From: Rhodocollybia butyracea
Taxonomy: Eukaryota > Basidiomycota > Agaricomycetes > Agaricales > Omphalotaceae
Direction: 5' to 3'
Assembly (NCBI GenBank): GCA_015501585.1
Contig: JADNRY010000063.1
Location: forward strand, 186,001-250,000
Length of the DNA: 64,000 bases
The notes below the pieces were generated by a model that made no database searches, was not told the origin of the DNA, and saw nothing but the letters and a program-made list of their open reading frames with translations. This document shows positions 16,954 to 30,831 of this stretch, piece by piece (the first letter of the stretch is position 1; each line of letters begins with the position of its first letter). The position numbers and the translations under genes were made by a program.

Positions 16954-17220
16954 TAGTACGTGACTTTACAGTGCAAAACGGCTTGCTATGCACTAAAACC
17001 TTGCAGGAAAAAGGCCTAATTATACCTTGAATTATACGAAAAGTTCGCGCTAACGCGCGAAACCCAAAATGCCCAGTACTTAGGGCCTGTTCAGCAGCGA
17101 GATTGAGTCCGATGTTGGTCTAATGTTCATTTCTTTGTGCTGTTTCTCTAAAGTTTCCATGCTAGTATATCCATTTATTCATAGTCTTACTGAAATAGCA
17201 TTAAAAAAGGTTTATTGAGC

Positions 17221-19320
17221 TTAAATTGCACCTCATACGCCCAGTAGACCTATATAGTAGCCTTTGACATGGGGGGTGTGATGGCGTAGGGAGTTATCAT
17301 AACAATCCGCTATTGTACAGTAGCGCAATAAAAGCGCTATATTTCGTCTGACTTTGATGTACAGAGATCTCTCGGGTACCAATGGTACTGAGATCACGCG
17401 TAAGCCGTCCCGAACATACGCGCCTTAATTTGCGCCGCCTCCCGAGCAAACTATCTTCTGCCCCAGTCCAGTGCTCCATTCCTTGTAACTTTATATGAAG
17501 TTCATGTTGTTATAACCCATACATATCTCATGACTTGAAAAATCGTGAGAAACAGTGCCAGAGAAGCAAAGGCATACAGTTGATGGACTTGAGCTTCCTG
17601 AAGAGCTCTATGGTACAGGCCCCTCATATGGAAGTATCAGATACTTGAACCCTCAATGTCAGCGATGCTGCTCCAGCTTTGAACGACAGTATACCACCCA
17701 CTGGAGTCTTCCTTATTGCCCTCTTGCTTGTCTCACCATCTCGTCATCAATAGTTGCAGTTAATAGATCATCTATGGCTTGCATGGTGTAAGTATCTAGT
17801 ATTTTACAATGTATAGAGGCTATGGAGGCCCTCTATGTAGTCTATAGGGCCAAATATCCCTTGTGGTCATGGAGGAGAGCCGCGAATTGAAACGTGGGAA
17901 TGTACCGGAAAAGTTTGCCGGTGCTTCCGCTCGTTGTTCCAAACGGTGAGCAGAGGGAGGGGATCATTTCTGATTAAAAGCGGACATCACGGAAGCTCAT
18001 GCAAAGGTGCAATCGTTTCTTTTAGAGCAAAATTTGCATACAAATATACCACAAGGTTCTTGAAATATCCACCCCTTTGTAAAGAGATGCAGTAAAAGTC
18101 GTATTCACTAGGCAAAACAGCGAGCTCAAGAAGGAACAACTTGTACTACGGTCATCATGTTTGGACAATGAGACAATCTATAATAGTCCTTTATTACACA
18201 TTAAAATTGGCTCTACTGGAGTGGTCTGACAATGTTAACATGACCTTACTTTCATTCATCCAAGTCGTTGCACTTGGTTTGATCCTTGAAGACCTATTAC
18301 CCTCTTGAGACTGTTGAAGTTGGTAAATAACTCTAATTTTGCCATATTATGTTGATATAGCATACGAAAGTCTATTACCACTATATCAAGTCCGTAAGTA
18401 AACTCGTTCCTTCTGGAGCAAACTGTTTTGGCTAGTGAATACAACTTTTACTGTACATCTTTACAAAGGAAAGAGTATTTCAAGCTCCTTGGGGTATATG
18501 TTTATGTAAATCTCACTCGAGAAGGAACGATTACACCTCCCCATGAGCTTCCGCGATGTTCGCTCCTAATTGAAAATTATCCCCTCCCTCTGCTCACCGT
18601 TTGGAACAACAAGCGGGAGCACCGGCAACCTTTTCCGGTACGTTCCCACGATTCCATCCACAGCTCTCCTCATCGTTCAGCACAACCACTAGATAATACT
18701 AGCCCTATATGTTACATAGAGGGCCCCCGTGGTTGCTATACATTTCAAGCTCCTGGATACTTACAATATGTGAGCAGTATATCATCTATTAACTGCAACT
18801 ATTGAAGATGAGATGGTAGCCTCTTGTGTCTTATAGGCCACACTCTCAAAGCCAAACAGTGGTTTGAACGTTCGAGTTTGTTTGTTTGTTTGTAACCACT
18901 TATTTATATTGGAGAAGACGATGCAACGACTTATCTGTACGGCGGGTCACTGTGCATGCCCTTATGTACAAGGTTGTGTACATAAGGGCCATTTACAGTT
19001 ACTATGAGGCAAGTATGTAAAGGTTATAACGGCGCGAAAGCTACCAGAGAGTGAGGGAGTGCTGGAGTTGAGCAAGAAACAGTGTTCGGGAGGCTGCGAT
19101 ATTCGAGGCGGCATATGTTCGGGCGGCATACGCGTGATCTCGGTACCAGTTTTCCGGTACCCGAGAGATCACTGTACTACTACATCAAAGTCAGATGAAA
19201 TATAGCGCTTTTATTGCGCTACTGTACAATAGCGGATTGTTATGATAACTCCCTACGCCATCACACCCCCATGTCAAAGGCTACTATATAAGTCTACCGG
19301 GCGTATGAGGTGTTAAATTG
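17221..19320. repeat. 8-bp target duplication TTAAATTG of the foldback element
   Basis: TTAAATTG occurs at 17221-17228 immediately before the left terminus CACCTC and at 19313-19320 immediately after the right terminus GAGGTG. Confidence 0.85.
17229..19312. mobile_element. Foldback (long-inverted-repeat) element, 2,084 bp
   Basis: The two halves are reverse complements centred near 18271. For example GGCGTAGGGAGTTATCATAA at 17284 mirrors its complement at ~19240, and CAAACGGTGAGCAGAGGGAG near 17940 mirrors CTCCCTCTGCTCACCGTTTG near 18590. Similarity reaches inward to about 18150/18395. The outer ~250 bp are the best preserved. The ends are CACCTC...GAGGTG with a perfect 8-bp duplication. No frame encodes a recognisable protein. 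The shared terminal hexamer and duplication length with the KDZ element next door suggest mobilisation by a KDZ-type transposase. Confidence 0.85.
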
Positions 19321-19330
19321 AGCTCATAGT

Positions 19331-19641
19331 CACCTCGACATCACGCCTATCAATAGATCTAAGCCTGGTTAGATGGGGCCCACATGCCAGGCCCCCTCCC
19401 CTGGATCCGGGTCTTTCTCTACATCGCGAGTATTTCCGCGAATAATTCTAGATATTTTCTATAAGGTTAGAGTCTGGAGCCTTGATGTAAGCTACCTGAT
19501 AAGCAGGGTGATAACGACTATGCAATAACAGCATCCTTTGCCAAGTCCGCGATATCGGGCCTGAGTTCTTTGATTGCAATCACTGCCAATCACTGCCCGC
19601 CCACTGTCCCGCCCCTTTTCCCAACGCCGCAATTCTTCAGT
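19331..19641 (+). repeat. KDZ left terminal inverted repeat
   Basis: Begins CACCTCGACATCACGCCTAT. Read against the complement of 29779-30089 it matches nearly throughout, with a small insertion (AATCACTGCC duplication) and scattered mismatches towards the inner end. Ends ~75 bp before the transposase ATG, so it probably includes the promoter. Confidence 0.92.
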
Positions 19642-19716
19642 CGTTCCGCCCTCTTACTCTCATTTTTTTTACTGACACCTATCTTTTCGGGAAGTCCGTT
19701 TACATAAATCAACGAT

Positions 19717-22700
19717 ATGGGCAAGAGAAAGGCAGACGGCATTCAGCGCGCGGTACGCTCATACGTCGGTGCTGGGAGGTTTGGGAAAGTACTAGGTACA
19801 AGTTCAACGTTAGGTCCTCGGGCTTTGGCTAAGAAGCGCGAGGAAGCTGTGGCTAGAAGGACTCAAGCGTCTCAAGGTGCATCCTATTTTCAATTCATCT
19901 TAGGTGTATTCTTACAGTCTTTCAAAAGGTCTTAGTACTGAGCTACAAAATGCACTGAATGATATCACGGGAGATGATCATCTGGACTTTGGAGGCTCTG
20001 AAGGTATGGAGATCGATGGCATAGGCTCTGATATAAATGCTGGAGATACCGCCGATGGTGAAGACAGTAGCGCAGAGCTCAACTCTTCCCGGAATGTTGT
20101 TGTTGATCTCCGCGACTTTATAGGAGTCAACAAGTGGCATGGCCGTCGAAAATATAAGGATGCTCGCACTTGGAAGCAGCGTATTCAGCGTTTCAATAAC
20201 GCTTGGGCTTCGATTATCACCGAGCTTGTAGATGAGTACATTTGCTGGAAATACAACTCTAAGCCCAGTACTTGCAGTCCCAGTGACTCTTGGGAGTTTT
20301 CTATTGAAATAATTGATGTCCACTCTCTCACTCGTCAAACAACTATCTATCGAGACAGCGAAACGAAGGCCACCTCTGCTCTGGTTCGCGCAGGCTACCT
20401 CCCGGCCTCACCTGAATCACCTTCCGTTGCAGTTTCTTTACGCACGCTAGAGCTATTTTACGCAATGCGACTGTTCAAACCCAATTTCAGTGTTGAAGCA
20501 TTTGCCAAAATGGTGTGCTACCTACACTCAGTACGTATTTTACCATGCATTGTGTTCTGCCCTTATACCTGCCTAGGAGCCATACCGTCGTACCTATCGT
20601 ACTGCGCTCTCAGATACCTTTGATATCTACCTAGCTATACTGCGAAAGGTCGAATCCCGCGTAGCAAAAGAGCTAGGTCATGATTCGCCGGACTATCGAG
20701 CACTTAATAGTTGTCCGCCGTGCACCTATGAGGTACGCATGATTTATCCAGTTTATTATTTTTATCTGAGACTTTCCAAGCTTGAAGGCGAACCGCCACA
20801 GACATTCTCGCGTATGGTTGTTGTTGACGGCAACAACTCGCTGAAACGCCTAGATGGCGTAGGCAAACGTGAAGTTGCGGATACTCGCGTTTTTGGTGAA
20901 AGCGACTACTACCTCAGTGAGGAGTTTGTGAATCTTTATGCTGACGAGGTTCCGGCTCGCCCTCTGCCAAAGCCAGCAGTTGAAGTTGAAGAAGATTTTA
21001 CTGAGGATGTGGTACAGGGCAAGTACGGCGACCCCACTGATGGAGACTCCGACCCTGCACTCCGGGAGTGTACAGACAATTGGAAGGCTTCAGATGCAGA
21101 GGGCGCGAAGAAGATGTGGGATGCATTTCGGGAGTCAGGATACTTTGTGATGGCCTGTCGGCATGGCTTTGTGATGTGGGTAGTGGATATGATACGGAGT
21201 GGAGAGCTGTGAGTTGCGACTTTTTAATTTCTCTTGATTTTATTGCCACGTAATCAACCTGCTAATGAATCTCGGTGTAGGGCCAAATACCCGCTTGCAA
21301 TGGTAGCAAAAGCACTCAAAGTCTTCGGCTCCCATTGGCTGCTTGGGTACGATATTGGGTGTAGTTTTGGAGGTACCATACGCCGAAGTTCACTGGGCCC
21401 GGAATTTGACAAAAAGAAATGCCGCACATGCGTAAACGCCTTCCATGGATATGCACATTGTGCTTTATGCCAGCAGATATACCACCCTCTCAACATCTGC
21501 GGTATGGGGCTTGAGGACCTTGAAACTCTGGAACATCTCTTCTCTTCCTCCAACCAACTTGCCTCAATCACCAGGTACATGAGCCCATATCGACGTCGTG
21601 TATTCATTGACCTATTCTTACAACAATGGGACAGAGAAAAATATCAGAATCTTGCGACTATGCTCCACAACAACTACGTTCAAGCACTGGATGTCCTTGA
21701 ATATGAATTACCATCTTTCGAGGCAGATATCCAGGCACTGGGGCTCACCAAGGGAGACCTTGACGCATACATCGCAGAGGAGTCACATCACTTTGCTACC
21801 CTGGGTTCTGAAACGGCGGAAGATTTGCATGCGGTGGCGTACGTTGAGTTACTTCGAAAGTATAAGGAAGTCAAGTAAGTTGTTACTCTTTAGAATAACT
21901 GCTCTGCTGATACGTGCTATGATTCGTAGCACTGCATATGAAAATTCAAGCACAAATTTTCGCCTTCATACACCCTTGGACTATCAATTTCTATCTGACG
22001 CAGCATCGTACAACGCCAACCTCTCTGAAGGTCGCAAAACTGAAACGCGACGCCACTACCTTCTTGAACAGCGGGATAAAATTCTATTTGAAATTGTGCA
22101 GCTGGAAATGGTGATGAACGTTCATCGTCGGTGGGATCCAAGTGACTTGGAGTACAAGCAAGCAGTGGAATATCTTAACACGCGCAAGTACCGCCGGGCA
22201 CTAGAGCGCCTGCAGAAGCTGGTAGTACAGCGTTTGTTTGAGCTTCACAAGATGAATTTATCAAACACAGGTACGTTCTGTTTCAACAGAGTTATTGAAC
22301 CTTAGTTGATTTGTCTCTAATGGTAGGGTATAAAATGCGCACCCATATCTCCAGCGCCCTCCAACGCCGTTCTGCAGCCATCCGAAATGCTGTCAAAACA
22401 TATAACGCTGCTGCGTTATCTCTTGATCCACCCCGTGACACCCTGGACTGGTCGAAGGTTTCTCATTTCACATTCCTTGACCAGTTTAACATTCTTCAAG
22501 ATACACGGCATAGCGTCTTTGATCAGCCATGGGCAAAGCCAGTCGTCCGAAGTCTGATGAAGCAGCACTGTCAAATTGAGCGTGCTCGGGAAGAAATCAT
22601 ACATTGTAACATTGGTATTCGACGCCTCCACACATCGATAGTTGACGAAGAGAAGAACTTTGACATTGCACTGCAGAAGCTCAACGACGCACCGCTGTTT

Positions 22701-22970
22701 GGGCCTGTCTCGGACTATGTACGGCGTCGCAAAGCCGTGAATGCCCTGCTGCTTGCTCGTATCCATCAGACGTACAATCTGCCGGGTTTCACAGGTGATT
22801 TCACTCCAGGGAAGCGAAAGGGCTCCACTGATCCGCTTGAGACTTGTACCACTGTGCCACAAGCTTGCCCAGATCCCGAGTCTGATAATGGAGAAGACGA
22901 AGACGACGATGAGTTCATAGATGGAGTAGGGGCAATGGTAGACTTCATGTCCAGTATGTCAGTACAGTAG
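19717..22970 (+). CDS. KDZ transposase
   Basis: The transposase of the KDZ superfamily (RNase H-fold DDE-type nuclease). Seven exons give a continuous 974-residue model: 19717-19876, 19929-20530, 20577-20732, 20781-21208, 21281-21874, 21930-22270 and 22327-22970. The first acceptor is weak. Recognisable family features in order are a basic N-terminus (MGKRKADG), RTYRTALSDTFDIYL, the cysteine pair NSCPPCTYE, MVVVDGNNSLKR with an acidic residue, ACRHGFV, GYDIGCSF with the second aspartate, FHGYAHCALCQQIYHP and GLEDLETLE. The C-terminal third is helical and ends in an acidic tail (GEDEDDDEF). No frame break was found. It would cut and paste the element, and possibly the neighbouring foldback element, by recognising the TIRs. 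Confidence 0.92.
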
Positions 22971-23131
22971 CTCTAATGTACATGCTTTTTTAACAATTTG
23001 AAACTATTTACAAATTACAATCGTTGATGCGAGCAATGGCTCTGGGCCTCACCTCTGCATCTCAACTTCATTGCAACAATGATTGCATGCTACAAAGATA
23101 TCCCAACTCTGCGTGTAAAATTTTTATATCC

Positions 23132-23777
23132 ATGCCGTCAAGTAAAGATACGCATTCGATATTGCCAGCCCCCGGAAGCAAAGAGATGAAACAAGAGATG
23201 AAGGAAATATTGAAGGAATACTTCCACTGCCAAAGTGACTTGGACTATGAGGATGAAGCCTCGTGAGTTATGATTTATTGTCAGAGTTGTCTCCTCCCAC
23301 TGACTCCGAGTTTTAGTAGAAAAGAGGAAGCTAGCTACCTTGAGAGACTGGAGAAACAGGAACTAGATAAACAGACTCAGAAACTGCAGAAGTACGTGAC
23401 TTACTTCCGCGTTTACACTTGGACGACGTTTCTGAATTTAATACTTCAGAGAACAAGAAATCAGGGCGGCAAGAGAGAGGGCCAAAGCAGAAGAACTGGA
23501 CGATGAGAACAACGCTTGGCAATGGGATGGGGAGGTACGTATATCTCGGCTGCTGGACAAGTGCCCATCGACTGGGGAATACACCTGGAACGGCAGATAT
23601 CAACGTCTGCAAGGAGGAAAGTGGGTGGCGGGAGTGCTTGAGAAGTGTAGTGCGTCGGGAATGTATATATGGACTGGGAAAGGCCCCCGGCTCCTTGAAC
23701 AGGAACCGCGTCCCATGCCCCTTCGAAATGATTACATTCCACGCGCTTTGCGTACCATTCGGGCTAGCCATACATAA
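23132..23777 (+). CDS. Small coiled-coil protein of the KDZ element
   Basis: Three exons splice in frame (23132-23262, 23317-23391 and 23450-23777), giving about 177 residues. The first part is Lys/Glu-rich and helical (MKQEMKEILKEY, then EEASYLERLEKQELDKQ), a probable coiled coil continuing into EIRAARERAKAEELDDE. The C-terminal half contains a duplicated pattern, roughly LLDKCPSTGEYTW / VLEKCSASGMYIWTG, a possible two-repeat unit. I recognise no family. It sits 160 bp after the transposase on the same strand inside the TIRs, so it is presumably element cargo; an accessory role is an inference. Confidence 0.55.
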
Positions 23778-24774
23778 AGTTGCCTCAGCGTACTTATTAG
23801 TGCTCTGTAACTCTTGCATATTTGGAATACCAAATATTTACTACTGCCTGTAACCCCCGCATCTTGTACTTGTAGCACCTGTAGCAGCCAATAATCTTGA
23901 TGCTTAAGCGACCAATGTAACCTTGATTTCAGTAACTATGATGACCAAATTTCCCTCAGCTAACTGTGGGAATTAATAGGCGCTTAATAAAGTTGCCCGC
24001 CCATCCTTGTCGGGGCGTGCGCGCATCCCGACTTTGAAGTTCTTAAGTTGCTGGGGCCAGATATCTCAGGCGCGCTGTATCCATTAGACTTGTGTATATC
24101 TATTCTACTCAAATATGTAGTCGTTTCATTTAATTCTTCATTTGCACTTCCTGGGCACTTTGAAAGGTGATAGAGCTGAATGTCCTCCAAAACTACTATC
24201 CTGAAATGAATTAAAAAGTATCTGAGCTTCTAAGAGGTAAATATAGCTGGGATATCTATAAATCTCAGCTTTTGTGGCCTCTTGCGACATACCTGTACAG
24301 ATACTTGTCTCAACATTTTGCAAAACTGGGGTTTTCGGGGGCATTTTTCAACAAACTAATTAACCTATTGGAGATCCAACTCTACAAAGGGACTCGCGTC
24401 AAGTATATCTTCCATTTAATATGAATTTTACCTGTCCTTGAATTTTTGAGGTTAGAAAGTTTATCGAAGGTAGCCACAACTGCAGTAGCAGTTTGTGTTT
24501 AAGGTTCAAACACTTCGACCTCAACCATGTATGGAGCGATGTATTATAAAATTGATATGCTGGCTCGTTACATCAATTAGAGCTTATTTACTGCAATCAA
24601 ACTACTAAAAACTTCGTAGATTGACGTTGCTCAACGTTGCAAGTGGTGAGGTCAAGCATCGGAGTGGGCGGTCCGCAACCTAATCCAATACCTTCAAGTC
24701 TTCGTCGAACACAAATTTATGATAAAAAGCTTTGTTTATAGGTAACGGATGAAGCGAATCTATTTTACTCGTAG
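23778..24774. other. Gene-free interior of the KDZ element
   Basis: About 1 kb of AT-rich sequence between the 3' ends of the small gene and of the convergent TET gene. No frame, inverted repeat or insertion boundary is evident. Confidence 0.45.
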
Positions 24775-26581
24775 CTACGTATCGAGCCCGAGTTCCTCAA
24801 GAGTAGAAAACAAATTCAATCCCATTTTCCAACGTCCTTCTTTCCGTACTTGCTCCTCCTCAGCCTCCCTTGCTGTCAGCGATGCATGATACTTTTCCTC
24901 AGTTTGAAACCCATGGTCTACCCAACGAAAGTTACCTCCTGATGAATACTGTGTAAACGAATACCGGGTTTCCTTCTTGCCTATCCGCGTATTACCATGG
25001 CGGCAGACGCCGGACGGAATCGCAGCGACAGTGCCTGGAGGAAACTCAATGACAAGTCTGAGATCCCACAGCACCAAGTGACCGCCTCGTTTCCAGTTAA
25101 ACCAGCCAAGACCCCAGATCCAGCACCAAAGGAAAGCCAAGTTACCGAAGTCAATATGCGGTATACAAACCGTGCGAGGACCGAAGTTGAAGGCTGCTGA
25201 AGCCATGACACTGTTGTCAAAAATCCGGATGAAGGAGTCGTCGCTCGAGAGGAGACGCTCATATTGCAAACTGCAATACTCGTAAAGTCGAGGAGCCCAG
25301 GTTTTGAATATACCTGCCGTAGCGTGTAAGTAAAAGGCAGGTGGTTCTTAACAAAGTATCCCTTACCAGTAGCGTAGCCAGATAAGCGTTGGAATGGAGT
25401 TGAGTTGATAAGCTTGTCGATGACCTCTGCATTTGTTTCGGTGTTGGTGATATTGGCAGGATGCTGAGGCAAGAGTCGCTAAGTACGTGTAAGCTGGAGG
25501 GCAGTCAGAACACACCAAACGTCCTCCACCATGCGCAACGCCAGCATTAAGGTTACCGAAGTGCCCCCGACGGTTATCAATCCCTTTCCCAGTAAAGCAT
25601 GCCTCCGGTCGTAACTCACGCATAAGTTCAGCTGCTTCCTCAGCACATTGAGCCATAGTTGAGTCTCCGTATGCAATAAGACCCATAACGCGGTGGTTTG
25701 CGTCGACTAGTGGGACGGTGGTGCTTGGCTGGCTTCAATATGCGGCTGAAAAGAATAGAAGAAGTTACGCACTGCGGTACTGCTTTAATGAGTGTGAAGC
25801 CTTTCGAGTTGGGGCCTACGAGTTCCTTTAGTGCCCAAGTTCGACCCTCTCCTTCATCACCCTGGTCTAATAGCCCGACGTACGCTGTTGACGCTGCAGG
25901 AGCCTCACTCTCCATGGAAAATTTGACGTCAAACGCAGTGTTGCTGGGCACGAATCGTTCTGCCGGTTTGCTGCGTGCGGGAATCGCGTCGGCGTCTTTA
26001 GGTGGCGCCTCCTGCCTGCGTTTCTTACGGTTCTTCTTACTCCGAGATTTCCCTCGTTCCAGCTTGCGTTTCTGCGCGTTGGATTGTGATCGGGGTACTG
26101 GGGTACTTTGCGGCGTTGGAAGGGAAGAAGGAGAAGGTGGTGACGGAGAAGGAGGGCAGGACGTTAAGGGAGATGACGGAGTTGAAGAAGGGGGTAAGCC
26201 GTGGCTGGGCATGTCGTCTAGATTATCGTACAGGCCTTCAACGGAGATTGCGTGAATCAGGGCGTTTGTGAAGTCGAAGGTTTGCTCTATTACATAGGCA
26301 GAGACGCCTAGAGACTTAGCTACGTCTAAAAGGTAACGCCTGGGTGAGCAAGACCAAGGTGCGCTTTGAAATAGAAAAACAAAATGCGCCACGCGTAGTG
26401 CAGCCGGTTTCTCGCATTCCCAGGGCAATGAGTACGCAAGAGCGGTTGTGATACGCGTAAAAACGCGAAGAATACGTTCAAACCGCACTAGCTTATCCCC
26501 AAAGGACAGTTCCAGCCAAATGCAGCTAGCAGCCAGTTTTGAATTTCCAGTGCATGAATACTCAGCAGGCGGCAAGTGCAT
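24775..26581 (-). CDS. TET/JBP-family 2-oxoglutarate/Fe(II) dioxygenase
   Basis: Predicted 5-methylcytosine (or thymine) oxygenase of the fungal TET/JBP family. Four exons, 26581-25773, 25732-25516, 25463-25367 and 25313-24775, give 553 residues. The N-terminal ~200 residues carry Pro/Ser-rich and strongly basic segments (KRKLERGKSRSKKNRKKRR, a likely nuclear signal). The catalytic core runs from VPLVDANHR to the end. It contains NRRGHFGNLNAGVAHGGG and WAPRLYEYCSLQYERL. The Fe ligands are in PHIDFG (His427, Asp429) and VCRHGN (~His480), the 2-oxoglutarate arginine is in ETRYSFTQY (~Arg491), and KRGGHLVLWDLRLVIEFPPG lies between. All key residues are intact. The start at 26581 is the first in-frame ATG; a further 5' exon is possible. 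It is divergent from the viroplasmin-like gene across ~160 bp. Confidence 0.9.
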
Positions 26582-26744
26582 GGGTAGAAAAGCCTCCAAT
26601 GTAGGCTAGGCAAAGAAAAAAAGAGAAAGAGCATCTGACTCACCATTCTGCAGCTTCAGCTTCAGCTTCATGACAAAGTTGAATGTCAAGTTGAATGTCA
26701 AGTTGTTGACAAGTTGTGACATGTGATCAATCGATCGATTGAGC

Positions 26745-27955
26745 ATGGCGCTTTCTTCGGCGCCTATTCAACGCAACTGTGCTGCAGTAATCGTAATGGC
26801 CAAACGCTACATCGTCGTTGGTCCCTCTCAAGTACAGGGGAACGTTAAAAAGCCAGGGCTTTACTCAGTAATGTAAGCAATTTTATTTACTTATTTACCT
26901 CTGCCTTCATTTTCTAACTGATACTTACAGGCAATTTAAGCCTGGGGGTTACGGCGCACCGCCGCTACCTCTACTTATTCAATGCCCGGACGACGCAGTT
27001 GCTCAGGTTATTTATGACCGGCTTCAGCCCTTCTTCACTTTCCATGAAAACTGGTCTTCCGTCCCTCGCACTATGGTGGCCAAATTCACCAGTACACAAG
27101 AATTTCAATGTGTAGCAGAGCTAGTGGAGAACCGCAGGCAATTAATCTGGGCCGTGAAACTTGGTAGCAAAGCTGGTCTATTTCTTGATACGTAAGCTGC
27201 ATTTTTCATCCAAAGTTACACCTCTCAATTTTACAAACAGCGTCGAAGCAATTGCTTCAGTTGATCACTCCAAAAGAAATGACTTTGGCGAAATCTTCCA
27301 AGAGGCTTTTGCTTTTCGTAGCTTCACCGAGGCTGTCAGATGCCAAATGCTGAACGATAGGCCCCGAACGCATATTCACGTTTACAACCCTGCCAACGAG
27401 CCCGAGAGGAGTGCTGCTCTGCGTCGCACTCTTCTTGAGGAAGGCATCAAGGATGAACCCCTGGACCCAGATCTTGGCATTTCGGGACCCGTTCCCGACC
27501 CTGACAGCCCACAGCTTCCACCTAACCGTGGGATCCCCTCAGCACCTTCTACACCCCGTTGCCAACACTCTACGCCAAGCACACAGCCTGCACTGAGCTG
27601 GGGAAATGTCCTCTTTGCTCCCAATATCAATGTTCGAGTTACAAGCCCAGGTATTTTTTTTGTGTTGCTCTAGAACGTAACGTCTGATGATACATCAGGC
27701 CCAGCTTCAACTGCAAGCCCCGGTCCTTTAACTCCTACCCGAGTAGCTCGTGCTCCACGCGGGAGGGAGTTGGGCCATCGACTCCTGATTGCTGATGGTC
27801 TCAGTTTGCATGATGCTTCTGACTTTGAGGACATGCTTCTTACAGCTCAGTCATCCGCAGGTTTTGTCGATGAGGTCAGAGCTTCTGGAGGTCTCTTGGG
27901 AGCATTGAATGCCGAGAAGGTTGCTGTGCTTTGGGACTTGTACAAAATGCATTAA
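26745..27955 (+). CDS. KDZ cargo protein with viroplasmin/RNase H1-N-like region
   Basis: Four exons, 26745-26872, 26931-27191, 27241-27650 and 27699-27955, give 351 residues. A second in-frame ATG at 26796 (MAKRYIVVG) is also possible. The segment YIVVGPSQVQGNVKKPGLYS is followed ~60 residues later by WAVKLGSKAGLFLDTVEAI and FAFRSFTEAVRCQML. The pattern 'W/Y-A-V-x-x-G-x-K-x-G-x-[FY]...F-x-F-x-x-EA' is like the caulimovirus viroplasmin / RNase H1 N-terminal fold that binds RNA-DNA hybrids. This is a weak pattern match, not a confirmed domain. A Pro/Ser-rich linker and a helical C-terminus follow. No frame break was found. Confidence 0.6.
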
Positions 27956-28065
27956 CTTAACTTTGACCCAACCACCCTAAATCTATGATTTAATTTGTAG
28001 ATCTGTAGATACGCGATGATTTTTTATGCATGTGTGTTTAAACAACGGCTTCAGTTCGACGCACC

Positions 28066-29646
28066 ATGGCTCGCCAGAAAAAATCCAGCAACTTTAACAA
28101 GCTTCTCCAGGCCTCTCGCCGAGTCGGCCCTACTACGCGGAAGCCCTGGAGGACTCGAACCAAACGCGTGGCTATTAAACTCACTGCAGGGCAGAAGACT
28201 GAGAGAAAGCGGAAACGTGCAGCTCAAAAACTCAGCTACAAGCAGGCTTTGTTAGACGTTCATCAGCAAATATATGCAGCAGCTGCAGAGATTCATGAAC
28301 GCTTCCCCCAACTGTCTGTTGATCTCATAGTAACTGATATCTTCCAATCCGAAAGACTTCAGTCTGCAACAAAGGACGTTGGGCGGTACAGTGCATTCGT
28401 GAGCCTTGAATCAAAGCGCCTCAATGCTGGTATGTTTTACCTGCTTTATTATTTATTTTTGTCTCAAATATACTATTAACAGAGGTTCCTGAAGGCCAGC
28501 CTCGTCGCAAAGTGCACGAAATGTCTTCGGAAATTGCGGCAAAATGGCGGGAGATGTCTGAGGAGGAGAAGGACGTAGCCACAAAGGGGGAGCTAGCACA
28601 TCTTCGGGACCGCAGGGCTAATAAAGAAATTGGAGAACATCGAGTACCTGCTGCCGCCGCCCATGACTCCTTCCTAACACTTGAACGTGTGCAAGAAAAT
28701 GTAATTTGGGCTGTATTCTTATTAACGGAGCTCATTACTGACGTGATTTCAACAGTTAGAACGCTTGAATATAAGGACTGGCGACGAACACTTGCTGATC
28801 AGCACTCGCGGTAGCAACAAGGTCTTTCATAAGCCTTTTGTCTTTGCCAGCAGCGATCGCGTTGTTGAATTCTTCAACAACGCATACAAGGATGTTCCCA
28901 CAGAGATGGGGTACAGAATGGACGCCTTCATGGTATCCGGGGTTGAAGGTTTAGCACGCACGCAGGTTCAAGTCCTAACGAAGCTGAAGAAGGACATTAG
29001 CCAGCTCATTTTCAGAAAACTACGTAAGTCTGCCCCCCTTTATTTTTTGGCATGCTGCTAATTGCCAACATAGAGGAATGCGTTGGCCGGACTAAGGTTG
29101 GACGAATGGTTTACGTCGGTTTTTATCGAGAGTATCACCCGGCGGTATGGAATTATCGTCAAGAACTGGCCACTTCCAGAGTTCAAAAACCCCAGCTCTG
29201 TCGGGACGAAAACAGAACTCGACATTCTTTGGAACGCATGGAACACCGACGCTACTCACTTTTACCGCATGACAAGCTCTGAGCATAGTGAATGGCTTGC
29301 TGCATATGACGCCCGTCCACAGTTGCTAAGTAGCGGAGAGAGTAGATTTAGCGGTGAAGACAGCGCTGGAGATGGTGAGGTTGGAGCAAGAGAGGGAGAT
29401 CAAGAGTTGCAAGCTGAAGGACTGGGCTCTACGTCGAGCACGTTATGCAGTACAAGTGCTAGTTACGTCCCCGCGGGGAATGCTGCTACTACCTCTACCG
29501 CGGGGCGCTCTAACTTTGTCGCGATGAGCATGGTTACTGATGCAAACGGAGTTGCAATCGCTGTAAAGGCAACGAAGCGGAAGAAACGCTCAGACGCGGG
29601 TAAGCCTCGCAAGCGAAAGGCTCAGGTTGACGGCGGAGCTAGCTAG
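28066..29646 (+). CDS. HMG-box-like DNA-binding protein of the KDZ element (frame problem at last junction)
   Basis: Exons 28066-28429, 28483-28700 and 28756-29023 join cleanly; the last begins about 29074 and ends 29646. The N-terminus is strongly basic (KTERKRKRAAQK). The region KVHEMSSEIAAKWREMSEEEK resembles helices 2-3 of an HMG box, and HMG-like proteins are a usual KDZ companion. The last exon has the conserved-looking stretch ITRRYGIIVKNWPLPEF with GTKTELDILWNAW, then an acidic/Ser-rich tail and a basic end (KKRSDAGKPRKRKAQ, a likely nuclear signal). The donor CTAC/GTAAGT leaves phase 1, but every nearby acceptor into the conserved frame gives phase 0 or 2. This copy either has a one-base shift or uses a splice site I did not find. 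Confidence 0.65.
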
Positions 29647-29778
29647 TACTTATGTATGCTGCCCTGTATTCAGCTTGAATACATGCTTTTAAAACTACGG
29701 TATTGTAAAAAGACGCAGCGTAATTAAGAAAAGTGAGAGAGGGCGGGATGGCAGGCGGGCGTTAATGGCTCGGTATCT

Positions 29779-30089
29779 TAGACTAATGACTGAAAAAATT
29801 GCGTTGTCGGGATAAGGGGCGGGACAGCGGGCGGCAGTGATTGCAATCAAAGAACTCAGGCCCGATATCGCGGACTTGGCAAAGGATGCTGTTACTGCAT
29901 AGTCGTTATCACCCTGCTTATCAGGTAGCTTACATCAAGGCTCCAGACTCTAACCTTATAGAAAATATCTAGAATTATTCGCGGAAATACTCGCGATGTA
30001 GAGAAAGACCCGGATCCAGGGGAGGGGGCCTGGCATGTGGGCCCCATCTAACCAGGCTTAGATCTATTGATAGGCGTGATGTCGAGGTG
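29779..30089 (-). repeat. KDZ right terminal inverted repeat
   Basis: Ends ...GGCGTGATGTCGAGGTG, the complement of the left end CACCTCGACATCACGCC. It is followed directly by the target duplication CTCATAGT. Confidence 0.92.
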
Positions 30090-30104
30090 CTCATAGTTGC
30101 CCGT

Positions 30105-30831
30105 TAGAGCGAGTTGCATGGGCGCTTACCTGCTCACATGACCATCGGTCAAAAACGGTCCTGTCTAATCGGTTCGAAAACGGTCCAAACGGTCGGGCGT
30201 GGGAACCCTTGGTTTGAGGCTGTAGTCCCGCATGGCGCAGACGATCCTTTTTGTGACGTAGTTGAAGAAGACGGTCCAGAAGGTTCAAACTATCGAGGTC
30301 TTTCTGTATGATGATATTACTGGAAACGCACAGCTGGTACTCTTCGAATAGTTCGTCTGAGTCGAGCTCCTCATCGGCATCGCTAGTGTATTCCTCCCAC
30401 ACTGGCTTCAGCTCGGCCTCAATCTGCGTGAGTTGCCCCACGAGAGTATCTTCAAGGCCGTCAATATCAATATTATCAGTCATCTTGTGCAAGCGGTCGT
30501 AATAATTTGGTAGAGTATTTTCTAAAATACTCCGTGCAATGATCAATTTATGCGGCAAACACTGAGCTGAAAAAGCGTACCTGGGTGGAAGAGTTTCGTA
30601 ACAGAGTGCAAGTACTTCAATAACGCAAGGAAATGAGCAAGGAACAGTTAAGATTGTGCTCCCGCTCGTAAGCCTTATATACTCCGCCTGGTGAACACAG
30701 CAGAGATCATTATACGATCGAGTGTGGCGCAACCAAGGTACAGTCTGAAACAGGCGTTTATTCTCTTGATTAGGCGAGCGTATAGAAATCACGTTTATGA
30801 TTGTGCAATCGGAACCTGAAGATAGAATCAA
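30105..30831 (-). pseudogene. Detached N-terminal metacaspase module
   Basis: An open frame of 246 residues. The part starting MTDNIDIDGLEDTL shows the same layout as the N-terminal module of copies A-C: QLTQIEAELKPVWEEY against QLNDIEERMVVADELW, DELFEEYQ against DELLKEFQQ, and LQLRHKKDRL against ELGRLKKDRHE. No caspase domain follows. A good donor CAG/GTAAGC at 30129 lies 40 bp from the KDZ terminus. The natural continuation would be an intron now holding the KDZ, foldback and MITE-like elements. Residues before MTDNIDI have no counterpart and may be upstream sequence. Confidence 0.6.

Follow-up and report, generated by a model that had tools for sequence, protein, structure and literature searches.

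The window analysed here is a 64,000-nt stretch of the Rhodocollybia butyracea genome (assembly GCA_015501585.1, contig JADNRY010000063.1, positions 186,001 to 250,000, forward strand; this contig is C972 below). Positions 19331-30089 of the window hold a DNA transposon of 10,759 nt (~10.8 kb), in which five genes lie between terminal inverted repeats (TIRs) of ~300 bp: a KDZ transposase, a small coiled-coil gene, a TET/JBP-fold dioxygenase, a third cargo gene and an HMG-box-like gene. The genome of the host (95.6 Mb, 1381 contigs) was searched for related sequences. Judged by its ends, its target-site duplications (TSDs), an empty site and two near-identical insertions, the element is a recently mobile transposon of the KDZ superfamily, and that it is a real mobile unit we regard as practically certain.

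Ends, insertion site and copies

The left TIR (19331..19637, + strand) is complementary to the right TIR (29794..30089, - strand). The arms at 19331-19605 and 29815-30089 (275 nt) were found to be 97% complementary and to continue in an overlapping 41-nt extension at 85%, in line with the ~311-bp repeats proposed by an earlier sequence-only reading of the window. The terminal letters of the element are CACCTCGACATCAC on the left and GTGATGTCGAGGTG on the right. On both sides we read the perfect 8-bp duplication which that reading had described, CTCATAGT, at 19323..19330 on the left and, in matching form, at 30090..30097 on the right. It had also proposed looking for the duplication at an empty site. 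The joined flanks matched, in one run and exactly across the junction, a copy of a dispersed repeat on C235 that has the TSD only once (the empty paralogous site, in L050); this comparison has only 18 nt to the left of the junction, and C235 alone was read base by base. The target was a copy of the dispersed repeat (TTAAATTGAGCTCATAGTTGCCCG...), corresponding to 19313-19330 and 30098-30228 of the window, and 12 of 40 repeat matches among those listed ran uninterrupted across the insertion point. The left flank at 19181-19312 is itself multi-copy, with an inverted copy at ~17216-17361, and another inverted-repeat element of ~2.1 kb (17216-19312) seems to adjoin the transposon.

At least 41 TIR matches were found in the host genome (40 of 92 candidates were scored). 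A second copy lies on C762 between unrelated flanks, with the TSD ACATACGC; over the full 10,759 nt it was 99.63% identical to the window element. It was rejected as an allele or assembly duplicate, as the 2-kb flanks of the window copy had no match to its ~0.9-kb flanks and the TSDs differ. A more distant element on C583 (10,702 nt, 67.7% identical over aligned positions, TSD ACAAATGA) carried all five genes in the same order. Both have the ends of the window element and the TET gene inside their TIRs; neither shifted ends nor an outlying TET gene, named beforehand as counter-evidence, was seen. Four short elements of 2.8-4.8 kb (C113, C1349, C223 and C659) also share these ends, with the TSDs AATTCAAC, TTTTCGGA, GTGCTCAA and TGTCCTTT. 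TIRs with 8-bp TSDs at several independent insertions, as expected of the KDZ superfamily, were therefore present in all seven elements read at both ends (C972, C762, C583, C113, C1349, C223 and C659), and the seven TSDs are distinct; for C1010, C740, C741, C428 and C539 one end alone was read. Chance as the origin of the TIRs and TSD was ruled out by these independent copies, since the second copy has the same ends with its own TSD and the empty site reads through.

The main internal region common to short and full elements (~67-73% identity) was a block at 23979..24677, between the small gene and the 3' end of the dioxygenase gene, in which we recognised no gene. It had 16 matches in the host, with two contigs counted twice. 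Other interior parts of the short elements could not be aligned, except for a near-identical C223/C1349 pair, two patches of C113 and stretches of C659 matching C740 and C583. An annotated RNA was rejected, with no Rfam match up to E 1, and so was a protein, as no open reading frame of at least 80 aa was common to the short elements (judged by eye). Its retention in short derivatives suggests that the block may have a cis-acting role.

Five genes and their conservation

The transposase gene (19717..22970, + strand) has seven exons (19717-19876, 19929-20530, 20577-20732, 20781-21208, 21281-21874, 21930-22270 and 22327-22970, the first intron placed by splice rules only) and encodes 974 aa without an internal stop, exactly as the sequence-only reading had it. 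Using a 990-aa version that retained a 48-nt in-frame intron, we found a full-length match to Pfam KDZ (PF18758; E 2.8e-75), with CxC1 at 26.2 bits against a cut-off of 26.9. D322, D473 and E533, which we take to be the catalytic DDE residues, are present. The presumed catalytic Glu is followed by residue 534, a His in the window; C762, C583 and C1010 have Arg there. Across 17 loci scanned, 14 were readable besides the window (these three included), giving 11 Arg, 2 His and 1 Gln.

The small coiled-coil gene next to it (23180..23777, + strand; at least 161 aa) was also found where predicted, with exons 23180-23262 (5' end uncertain), 23317-23391 and 23450-23777. The third cargo gene (26796..27955, + strand) has four exons and encodes 334 aa, in agreement with the public model of the C762 copy, P0121, which is the same save for one residue and the C-terminal end. 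The window protein had no Pfam match. One relative matched Cauli_VI over 15 residues (E 0.032; 14.9 bits against a cut-off of 21), and a low-confidence model has the order beta-beta-alpha-beta-alpha; a fold search with this model gave nothing better than E 0.98, and PDB sequence searches returned nothing useful. The gene first called 'viroplasmin-like' is thus real and conserved, but the label is weak, resting on that short match and that model.

The fifth gene (28066..29646, + strand) has exons 28066-28429, 28483-28700 and 28756-29023 and a last exon from ~29074. Its protein gave a weak HMG-box match (E 0.0054; 17.6 bits against a 25.4-bit cut-off), while 15 of 19 relatives matched the profile at E ≤0.1 (best 2e-4). 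A PDB profile search with the 19 relatives found no HMG structure at E ≤1, the top matches being designed repeats; with fused Gymnopus models SSRP1 came up at E 0.58. Near 29120 the window copy has a T-run with one base more than that of C762, and P0127, P0128, P0133 and C583 all read in the C762 frame, suggesting that the window gene is frame-shifted in its last exon or that the assembly has a homopolymer error.

On the opposite strand, the dioxygenase gene (24775..26581, - strand; up to 550 aa) has exons 26581 (or later)-25773, 25723-25516, 25463-25367 and 25313-24775, with homology to relatives from ~26325. The first exon of the 550-aa model is unsettled, and so therefore is the spacing to the third cargo gene. 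In the C762 copy, one base is deleted from the stretch of this gene that encodes the N-terminal region. The closest public protein is a 99%-identical Rhodocollybia butyracea protein. Placed by the motif HID...H...R, the iron triad and the 2-oxoglutarate-binding Arg are H424, D426, H477 and R488 in the 550-aa model, all of them present; they are the residues numbered His427, Asp429, His480 and Arg491 before. An AlphaFold model of the gene's public protein P0001 (331 aa) best matched CcTet, NgTET1 and TET2, above FTO/AlkB, and by this model the dioxygenase has a TET/JBP fold, aligning structurally to CcTet at 14% identity. PDB sequence searches with it gave nothing useful. A Tet_JBP profile search of its own genome did not list the window's gene, so a protein search was used for TET-like loci.

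At the residues compared, the motif HxDxxN...C fits neither published type of Agaricomycete TET, as these are described in the passages considered. The AG type has Asp at CcTet Asp337 and Gly or Ser at Gly331; counting from HxD, we found Cys and Asn at these places, and among the 106 readable of 120 listed relatives 104 have the Cys and 103 the Asn. The Asp337 equivalent is given as Asp for Kyakuja-encoded AG-type enzymes in the relevant part of PMC12730594. The PE type has HxE; the window enzyme has HID, and 105 of the 106 relatives have HxD. The Asn stands where TET2 has Asn1387, which according to the section of PMC11040006 dealing with this residue binds N4 of 5-methylcytosine (5mC) and would clash with N6-methyladenine (6mA). 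This suggests, by residue correspondence, a conventional 5mC reader rather than the 5mC/6mA mode of CcTet, and we predict that the enzyme is quite probably a 5mC oxidase.

Codons were compared by the NG86 method with gapped codons dropped; dS was near saturation and the dN/dS ratios, given for C583 and then C740 against the window, are rough. They were 0.080 and 0.063 for TET (460 and 461 of 465 codons), 0.079 and 0.082 for the transposase (965 and 220 of 975), 0.142 and 0.214 for the third cargo gene (328 and 309 of 335) and 0.049 and 0.080 for HMG-like exons 1-3 (278 and 283 of 283). For the small gene 155 of 161 codons were compared in each, with no stops and pS of 0.68 and 0.55 against pN of 0.27 and 0.17. 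None of the aligned codons of C583, transposase included, or of the C740 cargo genes was a stop. The window and C762 copies differ by too few changes for a selection ratio. By these codon patterns all five genes are under purifying selection (the last gene in exons 1-3), the small gene in both comparisons, so that the five-gene set first proposed, found in the same order in C583, is real.

CpG decay and the proposed role of the dioxygenase

The best explanation, and in our judgement a likely one, is a five-gene KDZ mobile unit inherited together, whose dioxygenase relieves silencing or aids transposition. The transposase would act on the TIRs and move the element by cut and paste, while the dioxygenase would oxidise 5mC in DNA. 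Such oxidation could relieve methylation-based silencing in bursts, or could let the transposase act on methylated TIRs; it would not keep the element methylation-free for long. The HMG-like protein may be an accessory factor that bends TIR DNA, and the block at 23979-24677 may act in cis. On balance, we favour a counter-silencing role for the dioxygenase.

Several observations weigh against this reading and are taken here together with the alternatives that they raise. The window and C762 copies differ by 30 substitutions, of which 28 are transitions, all of them CpG<->TpG/CpA; taking CpG loss as the direction, each copy lacks 14 CpGs. CpGs make up 21% of C/G bases, and the excess is, on this pattern, the mark of 5mC deamination. 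With CpG changes accounting for nearly every difference, it appears that methylation has acted on both copies since their separation, and to judge from these substitutions the TET gene has not spared them. The suggestion that the element escapes methylation silencing is thus unsupported as it was stated. The CpG share was mostly raised in other near-identical host repeat pairs too (8/32 to 18/19, with one pair at 0/1), so such decay is not confined to TET elements. Counts for these pairs, some of which overlap, were 13/21, 18/19, 11/18, 12/16, 9/17, 39/59, 40/57, 23/29 and 23/45, and one short-element pair was lower (8/32 and 13/23). Together with five host matches to C5-methyltransferase above cut-off, the decay in repeats indicates that the host very likely methylates them. 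The observed/expected ratio of CpG was 0.88 for the element, 0.87 and 0.89 for the rest of the window and 0.58-0.80 for short elements; C1349 (0.58), C113 (0.63) and C223 (0.74) are more CpG-depleted than the full element.

A difference that lies almost wholly at CpG raises the question of how a methylcytosine oxidase would benefit a transposon that is nevertheless methylated. One answer is that the dioxygenase works in the chemistry of transposition or in the choice of target, with methylated or oxidised TIRs or targets preferred and methylation a part of the life cycle. Strong CpG decay in both copies and long-term purifying selection fit an element that lives methylated, and in Coprinopsis oxidised 5mC was reported, in the passage of PMC12730594 concerned, mainly alongside 5mC around transposons. 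However, the decay is also present in the other repeat pairs, and we consider this answer unlikely, if the strongest of the alternatives.

Further points against the preferred reading, in which 5mC oxidation counters silencing, concern the substrate. The window dioxygenase had no Pfam match, Tet_JBP included, and 8 of 36 aligned members matched Tet_JBP at E ≤0.5 (best 1.2e-6). The position of CcTet Arg393 and TET2 His1904, which contacts O2 of the base, is Ser, Pro or Ala in this family, so 5mC is a predicted substrate. Action on a base other than 5mC (6mA, thymine or RNA) would be consistent with this position, with the low identity to CcTet and with the lack of CcTet Gly331 and Asp337. Yet the best fold matches, above FTO/AlkB, are all 5mC enzymes, and the Asn at the Asn1387 place, in the published account of that residue (PMC11040006), binds 5mC and clashes with 6mA; we regard another base as improbable.

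It is a little more doubtful still, as one reading, that the element is a self-contained counter-silencing vehicle, in which the four non-transposase genes form a conserved multi-level module and a separate internal cis block marks DNA for mobilisation. The parts of the module could be a new 5mC oxidase subtype that reads DNA as TET2 does, a possible hybrid- or RNA-binding protein directed against RNA-based silencing, and an HMG-like DNA-bending partner of the transposase. If this were true, short derivatives would have to keep the internal block, and TIRs alone would not be enough for mobilisation.

Damage to individual copies is a further point on the negative side. The window copy is, from its sequence, not pristine: the 'intact' of the sequence-only reading holds for the ends, the TSD and the transposase frame, but not for the T-run in the last gene or for His534 in the transposase, where most relatives have Arg. 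The C1010 transposase (954 of 975 codons, dN/dS 0.189) has 5 stops and the C740 transposase remnant has 1, and frame-shifting indels in C583 and C740 fall outside the codon comparison. TET-like genes are moreover abundant in the host, with at least 129 matches (121 of 268 candidates scored). Loci were clustered by hand into 89 KDZ, at least 110 TET-like, 10 third-gene and 21 HMG-like loci. In this lower-bound set of 110 TET-like loci, 83 lack a KDZ locus within 12 kb and 27 have one, against at most 2.2% of the genome lying within that distance. The arrangement KDZ-TET-third-HMG was found at six loci (C972, C762, C583, C442, C938 and C1160), some of which may be haplotype pairs, and TET-third-HMG without a KDZ-domain match at C740 and C2; the small gene was sought in C583 and C740 only, and TIRs were not read at C442, C938, C1160 and C2. 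A TET-like locus lies within 12 kb of 8 of 10 third-gene and 15 of 21 HMG-like loci. In Gymnopus, P0128 and P0136 are single gene models in which the third gene is followed by the fifth.

That TET and the other genes are passive passengers, hitchhiking or relics without a present role, would suit the abundance of TET-like genes away from KDZ and the damaged or altered gene in each of the window and C762 copies, but is very improbable given pN well below pS in five genes over highly diverged elements, no stops in the C583 and C740 cargo codons, the recurrent arrangement and the two joined Gymnopus models.

Relation to known elements

TET/JBP and KDZ genes are reportedly associated in basidiomycete genomes (Iyer et al. 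2014). The window element shares this link and adds the ends, TSDs, empty site and gene set of one element.

TET-carrying (TET+) fungal transposons with termini and TSDs, the TET-KDZ association and the idea of escape from silencing are in print in the parts of PMC12730594 compared, so the association was rightly called known. The TET+ Kyakuja and Zisupton elements of Agaricomycotina described there (Kojima 2025) are, like ours, KDZ-superfamily elements whose termini are defined and enclose a TET/JBP gene. In the same passages, Kyakuja has 7-bp TSDs and no TIRs, whereas the window element has an 8-bp TSD and ~300-bp TIRs; Zisupton has 8-bp TSDs, as here, and the window element, with its TIRs and 8-bp TSD, resembles it in its ends. 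The Agaricus bisporus TET+ elements covered there, Zisupton included, encode PE-type HxE enzymes, whereas the window element has an HxDxxN..C enzyme and three further genes. Rhodocollybia, Lentinula and HMG do not occur in the main text of PMC12730594 in the parts compared.

KDZ1 of Cryptococcus neoformans (PMC12810828) is similar in its size of ~11 kb, its long TIRs (241 bp), its 8-bp TSDs and a KDZ transposase with CxC1, and inserted at new sites, including a reporter gene; the passages compared do not mention a TET gene for it. CcTet of Coprinopsis cinerea (PMC11040006; PDB 8jkk), as described in the portion consulted, shares the TET/JBP fold, the HxD..H iron site and the 2-oxoglutarate-binding Arg, but has Gly331 and Asp337, behind its dual 5mC/6mA use, where the window enzyme has Asn and Cys. 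The five-gene layout, described in advance as less known, is not named in the literature found on such elements, with Table S1 and Figure 7 of PMC12730594, where a relative is possible, outside the comparison. The five-gene version thus seems undescribed so far, while the general kind is already known. What had been a loose observation of TET genes near KDZ transposases is now tied to one defined unit that moved recently, whose ends, sister copies and short derivatives are known and whose expression, methylation and excision can be measured in this mushroom.

Among the 27 host loci with a nearby KDZ, TET was on the opposite strand in 26 (11 downstream, as in the window, and 15 upstream and divergent) and downstream on the same strand in one. 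The 15 loci of the second type are on C1268, C506, C676, C74, C905, C1090, C837, C716, C902, C620, C1027, C650, C1094 and C531. C74, C905 and C837, and likewise C442, C938 and C1160, form near-equal-scoring KDZ/TET sets spread over different contigs and may be further recent copies or haplotype pairs. C539 and C428 share >10 kb at >99%, flanks included (L005/L006, L025/L029 and L026/L028), and haplotypes seem to be separated in parts of the assembly. Relatives of the third gene outside the host were P0125 of Gymnopus androsaceus and one further record; the P0125 contig has 224,438 nt, as does that of the TET protein P0012. The 19 HMG-like relatives include named ones from Rhodocollybia, Gymnopus and Lentinula. 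In Schizophyllum, two public models, P0094 (962 aa) and P0107 (946 aa), contain both a TET-like region and a KDZ domain and are either gene fusions or merged models.

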